Virus record (IMG/VR): IMGVR_UViG_3300042879_004465
Span: 1 to 60,595 of that record
Origin: a virus
Strand: one strand, 5' to 3'
DNA: 60,595 nt
Notes under the pieces: model-generated
Databases searched by the model: none
What the model saw: the letters and a program-made list of their open reading frames with translations, nothing else
What the model was told of the DNA's origin: nothing
Program-made: the position numbers and the translations under genes
Shown: in pieces, positions 8,080 to 58,596 of the stretch
Layout of the letters: every line of letters starts with the position of its first letter
How positions within the stretch are numbered: position 1 is the stretch's first letter

Positions 8080-8107
8080 TTGATAAATTTTTAAAATATG
8101 CTATAAT
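8080..8107 (+). promoter_or_regulatory. Sigma-70-like promoter of gp33, near-leaderless
   Basis: TTGATA (8080-8085), 16-base spacer, TATAAT (8102-8107). An ATG at 8108 directly abuts the -10 box and a second in-frame ATG at 8114 lies six bases after it, at the expected transcription start. Confidence 0.65.
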
Positions 8108-8350
8108 ATGACTATGTATTTAGACGATAAAGCCAAAACATCGTTTTCTTCTAAAATTTTAGAAAGAGTTCAAAAAACAAAATTGTCCTATATGGATTGT
8201 GTTATTGAATTGGCGGAAGAATTGGGAATTGAACCATCTACTGCTGGCAAACTTCTCACCAAACCAATAATTGAAAAAATTCAAGAGGAAGCAAAAGACA
8301 AGCATTTTTTGAAAAAGGGGAAAGCAAAAAAGCTTCCACTTGATGATTGA
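8108..8350 (+). CDS. gp33: Late promoter transcription accessory protein gp33
   Basis: An 80-residue homologue of T4 gp33, the co-activator that links host RNA polymerase carrying gp55 to the gp45 sliding clamp for late transcription. It shows the family core KLSYMDCVIELAEELGIEP then a TKPIIEKIQEEAK segment. It is shorter than T4 gp33 (112 residues), as in cyanophages. ATG at 8108 touches the -10 box. The ATG at 8114 (protein starting MYLDD) fits the predicted transcript start better and may be the real start. It sits just before gp32, close to the T4 order. Confidence 0.8.
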   Translation: MTMYLDDKAKTSFSSKILERVQKTKLSYMDCVIELAEELGIEPSTAGKLLTKPIIEKIQEEAKDKHFLKKGKAKKLPLDD

Positions 8351-8375
8351 CTGTCTGGGATAAATATGTTAGAAT
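8347..8375 (+). promoter_or_regulatory. Sigma-70-like promoter of gp32
   Basis: TTGACT (8347-8352), 17-base spacer, TAGAAT (8370-8375). Transcription should begin near 8382, the first base of the upstream hairpin in the gp32 leader. Confidence 0.6.
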
Positions 8376-8381
8376 ATAACC

Positions 8382-8426
8382 ATCAGGGTAGGTCCCTGAT
8401 ATAACAAGGTCTGGGTAGGCCCCAGA
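8382..8426 (+). promoter_or_regulatory. Tandem leader hairpins of gp32, possible autoregulatory operator
   Basis: Two perfect hairpins lie in tandem. The first has a 7-bp stem 8382-8388/8394-8400 and loop TAGGT; the second has a 6-bp stem 8410-8415/8421-8426 and loop TAGGC. The loops and the GGG...CCC closing pairs match. They end 15 bases before the gp32 ATG and just before its AAAGG. T4 gp32 represses its own mRNA through a 5' leader structure, so this is a likely equivalent; regulation is inferred. Confidence 0.55.
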
Positions 8427-8441
8427 GAAAGAAAGGTAAAA

Positions 8442-9305
8442 ATGAGTTCATTTTCAGATTTTAAGAAGCGTAGCAAGAATTCGGTTCAGGACCTCAGCAA
8501 GAAGCTGGAGAGTCTCAACAGCAAGGAAAGCTACAAGGATGAGCGGTTCTGGAAGCCGTCTCTGGACGCATCCAAGAACGGGTATGCCGTAATCCGTTTC
8601 CTGCCAGCAGTGGAGGGAGAGGATGTTCCTTTCATCAAGTTCTATACACACGCCTTCCGTGGCAAGGGTGGTTGGTTCATCGAGAACTGCCGCACTACTC
8701 TTGGAGAGAAGTGCCCGGTCTGCGAAGCCAATACTGAGCTTTGGAACAGCGGGCTTGAGGAGGACAAGGATATTGCCAGAAATCGTAAGCGCAAGCTTAA
8801 CTACATCAGCAACATTTTGGTGATCAGCGATCCTTCCAACCCGGATAACGAGGGTAAGGTTTTCTTGTTCAAGTATGGAACCAAGATTTTTGAGAAGGTT
8901 CAGGCGCTAATGAGTCCTGAGTTCAAGGACGAGACCCCGGTTGATCCTTTCAACTTCTGGGAAGGCGCCGACTTCAAGCTCAAGATTCGCAATGTCGGTG
9001 GTTATGTAAACTACGACAGAAGCGAGTTTTCGGCTCCGGCTCCTCTGTTTGGAGGAGATGACAAGAAGCTTGAGTTGCTTTGGAAAAAGCAGTATCCTCT
9101 TGGAGAGTTCCTTAGTCCCGCCACGTTCAAGTCTTACGAGGAGCTCAAGGAGCGCTTCAAGAAGACTGTTGGTGAGGATATTCGCGAGCAGTTTGACGAA
9201 AACTCCGAGAGAACCGTAGAGGACGACTCAACGGTGGAGCAGGTTCCATCGGAAGATGTGGACACTCTGGATTACTTTAAGTCTCTTAAAAATAAACAGG
9301 ACTGA
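8442..9305 (+). CDS. gp32: Single-stranded DNA-binding protein gp32
   Basis: A 287-residue homologue of T4 gp32, which coats ssDNA during replication, recombination and repair. The zinc site is visible as H70, C83, C91 and C94 (ENCRTTLGEKCPVCEAN). The N-terminus is basic, as needed for cooperative self-binding, and the C-terminus is acidic, as used for partner binding. AAAGG stands just before ATG. Codon use differs from the neighbours: lysine is almost always AAG and leucine often CTC or CTT, as expected of a highly expressed gene. It is followed at once by a strong bidirectional terminator. Confidence 0.92.
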   Translation: MSSFSDFKKRSKNSVQDLSKKLESLNSKESYKDERFWKPSLDASKNGYAVIRFLPAVEGEDVPFIKFYTHAFRGKGGWFIENCRTTLGEKCPVCEANTELWNSGLEEDKDIARNRKRKLNYISNILVISDPSNPDNEGKVFLFKYGTKIFEKVQALMSPEFKDETPVDPFNFWEGADFKLKIRNVGGYVNYDRSEFSAPAPLFGGDDKKLELLWKKQYPLGEFLSPATFKSYEELKERFKKTVGEDIREQFDENSERTVEDDSTVEQVPSEDVDTLDYFKSLKNKQD

Positions 9306-9332
9306 AAAAACCCCCCGAAAGGGGGGTTTTTT
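9305..9332. terminator. Bidirectional intrinsic terminator after gp32
   Basis: Six A, a 6-bp C/G stem (9311-9316 with 9321-9326) with a GAAA loop, then six T. The flanking A and T runs make it work in both directions. It overlaps the gp32 stop codon by one base and the stop of the convergent leftward gene at 9331. Confidence 0.92.
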
Positions 9333-58170: not shown

Positions 58171-58596
58171 ATGTCACATTCAAATGAAGATTTATTCAAA
58201 GGCGTGGGAGTTCCCATTCGCCTCACCAAAAAAGAGAATTATCTGGTAATAAAGGAAACTCTGGAAAGAATCGGAGTTAGCCCCAAAAACAAGAAGGTTC
58301 TATATCAATCTTGCCATATACTGCACAAGAATGATCATTACATAATTGCGCACTTCAAGGAGCTTTTTAAACTCGACAATCTTAAGTCAGATGTGTCAGA
58401 AGAAGATTTGCTCAGAAGAAATGCAATTGTAAATTTGCTTCAGGACTGGGATTTGATTGAAGTTCTGAGTCCGGAAAAGATCAAAAACAAGATGCCGATA
58501 AATGGCATTAAAATTTTAAGATACGAAGAAAGAGATGACTGGGACCTGATCCCAAAATTTAATACAGGAACATTGAGAAAATTCTTCTCGGAGTGA
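58171..58596 (+). CDS. regA: Translational repressor RegA
   Basis: A 141-residue homologue of T4 RegA (122 residues), which binds early mRNAs at their start sites to shut off translation. YLVIKETLERIGVS, KVLYQSCHILHKNDHYIIAHF, RRNAIVNLLQDWDLIEV and DLIPKFNTGT match T4 closely. CAGGAG precedes ATG. RegA binding relies on sequence near the start codon, which fits a phage with very short leaders. About 12 extra N-terminal residues are present. Confidence 0.93.
   Translation: MSHSNEDLFKGVGVPIRLTKKENYLVIKETLERIGVSPKNKKVLYQSCHILHKNDHYIIAHFKELFKLDNLKSDVSEEDLLRRNAIVNLLQDWDLIEVLSPEKIKNKMPINGIKILRYEERDDWDLIPKFNTGTLRKFFSE

Follow-up and report, generated by a model that had tools for sequence, protein, structure and literature searches.

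A covarying pentaloop hairpin in the gp32 leaders of uncultured T4-type phages, a candidate operator of gp32 translation

Repression of gp32 synthesis by gp32 itself through an RNA structure at the 5' end of its mRNA is established for the phages T4 and RB69 (PMC535899, PMC3014915). Whether the gp32 proteins of T4-type phages without the T4 pseudoknot bind their own leaders remains to be seen according to the first report (PMC535899), and more study of gp32 control in diverse relatives is called for in the second (PMC3014915). The gene 32 operator of T4 and RB69 is a structured RNA in the leader of the gene that it controls, 5' of an unstructured A-rich ribosome-binding region, and the element described here has the same general layout. 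The T4/RB69 operator is built from a pseudoknot and UUAA(A) repeats, whereas the present element is a simple hairpin, single or double, with a pentaloop of specific sequence.

Small hairpins recognized by proteins are also known from other phages. The boxB of lambda and the coat operator of MS2 each have a small loop of specific sequence on a short GC-rich stem, as does the element at gp32, and the boxB loop is a pentaloop with one freely variable base; the loop sequences, the proteins, and the roles differ, and the likeness is one of analogy only. The operator of the DNA polymerase gp43 in T4 and RB69 also has the form of a hairpin. The protein that reads it is a DNA-binding replication protein from this group of phages (PMC535899), but the operator belongs to a different gene. 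The STAXI motif is a tandem RNA or single-stranded DNA motif that lies near genes of single-stranded DNA-binding proteins; unlike the present element, it is made of pseudoknots in repeated copies, often with UUCG tetraloops, and accompanies DNA-manipulating genes of several kinds; gp32 does not appear in the main text of that paper (Weinberg et al. 2010, PMC2864571). In the open-access literature, no description of hairpins in the gp32 leaders of the phages considered here was found.

The window, which is the whole stretch of 60,595 nucleotides that was analyzed (IMG/VR virus record IMGVR_UViG_3300042879_004465), encodes on its plus strand a T4-type gp32 single-stranded DNA-binding protein of 287 aa (8442-9305; Pfam PF08804, E 5e-49), which matches the solved gp32 chains 2a1k, 2atq, 8gme, and 1gpc. 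Upstream of it lies a gp33-like late coactivator gene (8108-8350; Pfam PF16805), the stop codon of which is overlapped by the -35 box of a predicted sigma70-type promoter of gp32 (TTGACT-17-TAGAAT, plus strand, 8347-8375), recognized by 10 of 12 consensus matches only. An mRNA start at about 8382 is a reasonable consensus prediction, and in most relatives a TTGAC/TATAAT-like promoter is likewise present upstream of the hairpin. Since a consensus scan places a strong terminator-like hairpin directly 3' of gp32 (plus strand, 9305-9332), the promoter-driven transcript probably carries gp32 alone. Three further observations concern the surroundings: a sigma70-like promoter with 11 of 12 consensus matches (8080-8107) is located directly upstream of the gp33-like gene; GC3 is 0.624 in gp32 (8442-9305) versus 0.189-0.259 in three neighboring genes, which reflects either strong codon bias or foreign origin; and the window contains a gene for a RegA-family translational repressor (58216-58569; PF01818, E 5.1e-34).

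Two hairpins occupy the 5' leader of this gp32-family gene (8382-8426; start codon at 8442), and the sequence is as given in the preliminary description, which had reported two look-alike hairpins with UAGGU and UAGGC loops closed by GGG-CCC. Hairpin 1 (hp1, 8382-8400), at the predicted 5' end of the mRNA, has a 7-bp stem (8382-8388 paired with 8394-8400) and the loop UAGGU (8389-8393). A single-stranded linker of 9 nt (8401-8409) leads to hairpin 2 (hp2, 8410-8426), the clade-constant hairpin that adjoins the ribosome-binding site, with a 6-bp stem (8410-8415 paired with 8421-8426) and the loop UAGGC (8416-8420). Both hairpins are on the plus strand and sit within a 27-nt direct repeat that is 74% identical. 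Directly 3' of hp2, on the same strand, are GAAAG (8427-8431), an A-rich GRAAAG-like flank that is common in relatives, and a Shine-Dalgarno-like AAAGG (8432-8436) that was noted by inspection 5 nt ahead of the start codon. The MFE and centroid folds of 8382-8480 both contain hp1 and hp2, and these are the only strict-motif hairpins on either strand of the 60.6-kb window. The single-sequence fold energy of the leader is unremarkable (-21.9 versus a shuffled mean of -16.66 kcal/mol for 8382-8480; z -1.74; 9 of 200 shuffles as good), and the case that the hairpins are more than chance therefore comes from comparison, that is, from covariation, clade-wide presence, and specificity for gp32. The fold also includes a weak 6-bp hairpin (8439-8454) formed between the start-codon region and the first codons.

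The hairpins had been described as different from the T4 pseudoknot, and the leader bears this out. In a complement search of 8382-8480, neither loop had a 4-nt Watson-Crick partner beyond the hairpins themselves, and UUAA does not occur in 8401-8460, where the tract is A-rich. Among 62 distinct relatives, 14 have a 4-nt loop complement within 35 nt, with no conserved partner, and 12 have UUAA within 30 nt 3' of the hairpin; a pseudoknot reading was rejected because the complement search gave the loops no conserved partner. The element shares its place and its probable role with the T4/RB69 operator and is missing two of its features; it would therefore act in a like manner without necessarily belonging to that type, and as far as can be told there is no homology of structure. 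The whole window gave no match to Rfam 15 at the gathering score, and the best sub-threshold matches in 8340-8470 had E values of 1.5 and 1.7.

The hairpin is widespread among related loci. A first search with the gp32 protein yielded 80 IMG/VR loci, of which 78 have their leader; the other two (L037 and L073) were left out of all leader counts. A GG[U/G]AGN[U/C]CC hairpin of at least 4 bp is present upstream of gp32 in 78 of these 78 leaders. A second protein-seeded search, starting from a deep branch, brought in leaders with and without the hairpin. Over both protein searches, and with the GG/CC closing not demanded, at least one hairpin with a [U/G]-A-G-N-[U/C] (KAGNY) loop occurs in 120 of 158 gp32 leaders, and every one of the 38 hairpin-less leaders comes from the second search. 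The tandem arrangement emphasized in the preliminary description is found in the window and in 63 of the 120 hairpin-bearing leaders, which have two canonical hairpins, but it is not obligatory, as the rest have one. Every finder was restricted to loops containing [TG]AG and to stems no shorter than 4 or 5 bp; GG/CC closing pairs were demanded in the alignments A1-A3 and relaxed in A4-A5, the hp2 and hp1 covariation alignments. A set of 203 leaders, from which one of 53 nt (L152) was dropped, mixes protein-found and hairpin-found leaders, and leaders found by the hairpin pattern itself were used for gene linkage only and excluded from covariation.

In a 128-row FastTree tree of gp32, for which identical rows were merged as in all trees and alignments, the 82 distinct hairpin rows fall into one group of 83 rows with a support of 0.995. 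The sole row without a hairpin in this clade, L394, is nested inside it and looks like a single loss; its leader (upstream of 1501) has a different, longer inverted repeat. An independent 76-row IQ-TREE tree (45 hairpin rows and 31 others) requires two changes because it places the long-branched RB69 and Vibrio phage rows within the hairpin clade; this placement is read as a long-branch artefact but still counts as evidence that the split may not be perfectly clean. The clade is known here from metagenomic contigs alone, mostly fragments, and in a genome collection of 84,980 species none of the 8 stretches that match the patterns used is a gp32 relative. No psbA-family gene was found in 30 records, which are fragments.

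Among cultured phages, the strict hairpin was found at none of 22 named-phage gp32 loci, and the element is absent from gp32 in the 20 genomes that were scanned whole (3.73 Mb). A covariance-model scan of these genomes returned 11 weak matches in 7 of them; the best (E 0.003), in Stenotrophomonas phage Moby, is flanked by a capsid decoration gene on one side and a hypothetical gene on the other, away from gp32, and is taken as chance. Cultured cyanophages (S-PM2, Syn30, P-SSM4, and others) have the same gene in the same place behind a sigma70-like promoter, but by inspection most of their gp32 leaders have short unstructured AUCCAA/AAUACG-like repeats before the AUG and no KAGNY hairpins. Such repeats often occur just before the gp32 start in outgroup contigs and cultured cyanophages (L082-L103, L397-L433) and are possibly a gp32-binding tract in place of the hairpins. 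S-PM2, alone among the cultured cyanophage leaders, has by inspection a near-version of the hairpin, in which the loop is GAGUU and a G bulges from the stem. A separate structure is seen in S-PM2-type gp32 leaders (L270-L349, e.g., L292, L317, and L337), where an inverted repeat with covarying arms extends across the gp32 promoter: its 5' arm consists of the -35 box and the next bases (TTGACxxx), and the 3' arm, xxxGTC[A/G], begins 40-44 nt further on. In 58 distinct leaders of this type TTGAC is present in 51 and the 3' arm in 38, and the four variable positions of the arms are matched in 107 of 152 cases versus a shuffled mean of 62.3 and a maximum of 79 (2000 shuffles), the observed value being inflated because the best arm was picked per leader. 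This repeat can form only in read-through RNA or in DNA.

The preliminary description had proposed that the stems should covary around fixed UAGG loops in relatives. The first part proved strongly positive for hp2, for hp1, and on a gp32 tree. In the hp2 alignment of 51 distinct rows, 96.4% of cells are paired, five of the six pairs show double changes, and there are 71 double-changed cells versus a shuffled mean of 15.8; covariation is 0.588 versus 0.071-0.217 when the partners are slid by 1 to 3 columns. The hp1 alignment of 41 distinct rows is similar (97.6% paired; 42 double-changed cells versus 9.7 shuffled; covariation 0.557 versus 0.016-0.164 with slid partners). On a 91-taxon gp32 tree, from which the group L063-L067 was omitted with its hp2 stem of only 4 bp, pairs 2-6 counted from the loop underwent 5, 9, 16, 2, and 2 double changes on the same branch, of which 5, 9, 16, 2, and 1 lead to a standard pair (33 of 34 in total), versus means of 0.64, 1.48, 3.87, 0.07, and 0.24 under random placement weighted by branch length. 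The compensatory changes of a structured RNA are thus found beyond what relatedness gives. As to the loop, UAGG is not fixed: the relatives have KAGNY, with A rare at the last place and A, U, G or, once, C at the fourth. Loop changes on the same tree number 11 at base 1, 13 at base 4, and 8 at base 5, with none at A2 or G3; these two bases are demanded by the finder, and their constancy is informative only because 82 of the 83 distinct clade rows pass it. The loop-closing G-C pair of hp2 is invariant. A stem kept as structure and a loop kept as sequence are the signature of an RNA hairpin read by a ligand, not of a DNA palindrome.

The element is also nearly confined to one gene. A covariance model (R1, 41 rows) searched against 29 element-bearing records (1.18 Mb) gave 49 matches with E values no higher than 1. 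Forty of them, among which are all 39 with E < 0.01, are on the gp32 strand and no more than 120 nt upstream of that gene; the remaining 9 have E values of 0.126 to 0.953, and gp32 leaders hold every match with E < 0.1. In another 14 records (0.88 Mb, with contigs as long as 126 kb) there was one strong match each, with a tandem partner in two and one extra match at E 0.949; these strong matches are the gp32 ones according to the gene-linkage scan rather than by coordinates mapped singly. A gene-blind scan of viral contigs for the 17-base hairpin CCRAGGTAGATCCTYGG found at least 120 stretches, and among the 120 matches listed 109 are located a short way upstream of gp32, on its strand; the 15-mer CACGGTAGTTCCGTG gave 25 stretches, 17 of them at gp32. 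The matches elsewhere (11 among the 120 listed and 8 of the 25, respectively) look, by inspection, mostly like chance occurrences within genes. On this evidence the hairpins are almost certainly a gp32-specific structured RNA element. Its exclusivity makes a regulon-wide regulator unlikely, since the element would then be expected at other genes too, but does not identify the ligand.

The layout of the leaders gives further information on how the element may act. The start-proximal hairpin is the constant one, and the 5' hairpin is missing in many relatives; the spacing between two canonical hairpins is 6-14 nt. In 45 distinct leaders of the first search, the end of hp2 lies 8-27 nt from the start codon, whereas the T4 structure is assigned to a region 67 nt upstream (PMC3014915). 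In 7 of these 45 leaders, a recognizable Shine-Dalgarno sequence is missing between hairpin and AUG, and occlusion of that motif therefore cannot be the whole story. Position frequencies in 62 distinct contexts show that A-G is common on the 5' side and that the 3' flank is G-R-A-A-A-G-like.

We favor, with somewhat more confidence than doubt, the reading that the element acts in cis as a translational operator on the gp32 mRNA and is read by gp32 itself for autoregulation. Because the element occurs only at gp32, and because the gp32 of T4 and RB69 represses its own synthesis from a structured leader, gp32 is the most likely ligand and translation the most likely step. The two hairpins of the window would then be one cis-acting element, here duplicated, of which a phage protein, most likely gp32, would recognize the pentaloop on its short GC-rich stem. 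Bound at the start-proximal hairpin, gp32 may extend cooperatively along the A-rich single-stranded stretch of 8-27 nt that leads to the AUG, and ribosome loading would be blocked once gp32 exceeds its single-stranded DNA targets; a second hairpin, where present, could add affinity or cooperativity. Residues of gp32 were compared between 21 proteins of the hairpin clade and 21 others. Four of the seven clade-marking residues are basic (K28, K32, K75, and R248 in the numbering of the window gp32), and these are basic in at least 19 of the 21 clade proteins and rarely in the 21 others. They hint weakly at candidate RNA contacts, and shared ancestry alone could explain the pattern. Against the operator reading count the leaders without a recognizable Shine-Dalgarno sequence, the lone hairpin in nearly half of the hairpin-bearing leaders, the hairpin-less L394 within the clade, the 20 cultured phages whose gp32 lacks the element, and the fact that the finders in part impose the loop motif, although all clade leaders except one passed them.

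The conserved loop needs some ligand, and the same operator might have another reader, a RegA-like phage regulator or a host RNA-binding protein that controls translation or decay of the gp32 mRNA. This reading is unlikely. RegA-family genes are present in 11 of 30 records, including the window, but RegA and general host factors have many target mRNAs, as is known for T4 (PMC3014915), whereas the hairpin occurs at gp32 only. The T4-type nuclease RegB, which cuts GGAG, was found in none of 14 records of the set, which are fragments, with a positive RB69 control; the loops of the window and most hp2 loops read GGUAG, few hp2 loops read GGAG, and on both grounds a RegB target was rejected.

That the hairpins shield the gp32 mRNA from 5'-end-dependent decay with no dedicated ligand, as 5' stabilizers, appears quite improbable. 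It agrees with the start of hp1 at the predicted +1 in the window and with several relatives (e.g., L002 and L007) in which the 5' hairpin keeps its stem while the loop departs from the motif. However, a stabilizer requires a stem and not an A-G loop that is constant throughout the clade, and many lone hairpins begin 13-17 nt after the -10 box, several nucleotides from the predicted 5' end and beside the AUG. The role in mRNA protection put forward in the preliminary description is therefore a poor fit to both the loop and the lone hairpins.

There is little probability that the element is instead a translation aid, a structured standby or ribosome-loading site that raises gp32 synthesis. Although hp2 is immediately 5' of the ribosome-binding site, some leaders have no recognizable Shine-Dalgarno sequence, and the codon bias of gp32, with the GC3 contrast to its three neighbors noted above, is that of a highly expressed gene, such an aid would be expected at the other highly expressed genes of these phages and was not found there. 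Direct pairing with rRNA is unlikely, given the free variation of the stem sequence and of the fourth loop base, and on the same ground we rejected mimicry of the rRNA or Shine-Dalgarno sequence by loop and stem (GAGGUAGAUCC, which we take to resemble the complement of the 16S 3' end).

It is very improbable that the hairpins act at the level of DNA, as a pair of palindromic operators (+1 to +45) for a transcription repressor: the sequences are palindromic and at a promoter, but the arms change by compensatory pairs with no fixed half-site, and the asymmetric loop is always on the mRNA strand, with no strict reverse-strand match in 104 loci. Chance hairpins, for which only the fold energy of the window leader within its shuffle range would speak, are refuted by the covariation, with the clade-wide presence also against them, and their probability is negligible.

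Taken together with the operator reading, the data allow a broader proposal, which we advance tentatively and hold at somewhat less than an even chance. The KAGNY hairpin, single or in tandem, would be a new family of sequence-specific RNA operators read by an otherwise sequence-indifferent T4-type single-stranded DNA-binding protein; it would have replaced autoregulation through a pseudoknot and single-stranded RNA repeats in one large clade of uncultured aquatic phages, the gp32 of which would have gained basic residues for reading it. Being nearly exclusive to gp32, the hairpin itself can serve to mark this uncultured clade, and for the question of gp32 control without the T4 pseudoknot the element is a compact substrate with built-in controls, namely compensatory stem pairs, two invariant loop bases, and single and tandem forms. 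If gp32 reads the hairpin, one more small hairpin-protein pair would join those known from phages, and the system would show how a sequence-indifferent single-stranded DNA-binding protein acquires a specific RNA target.
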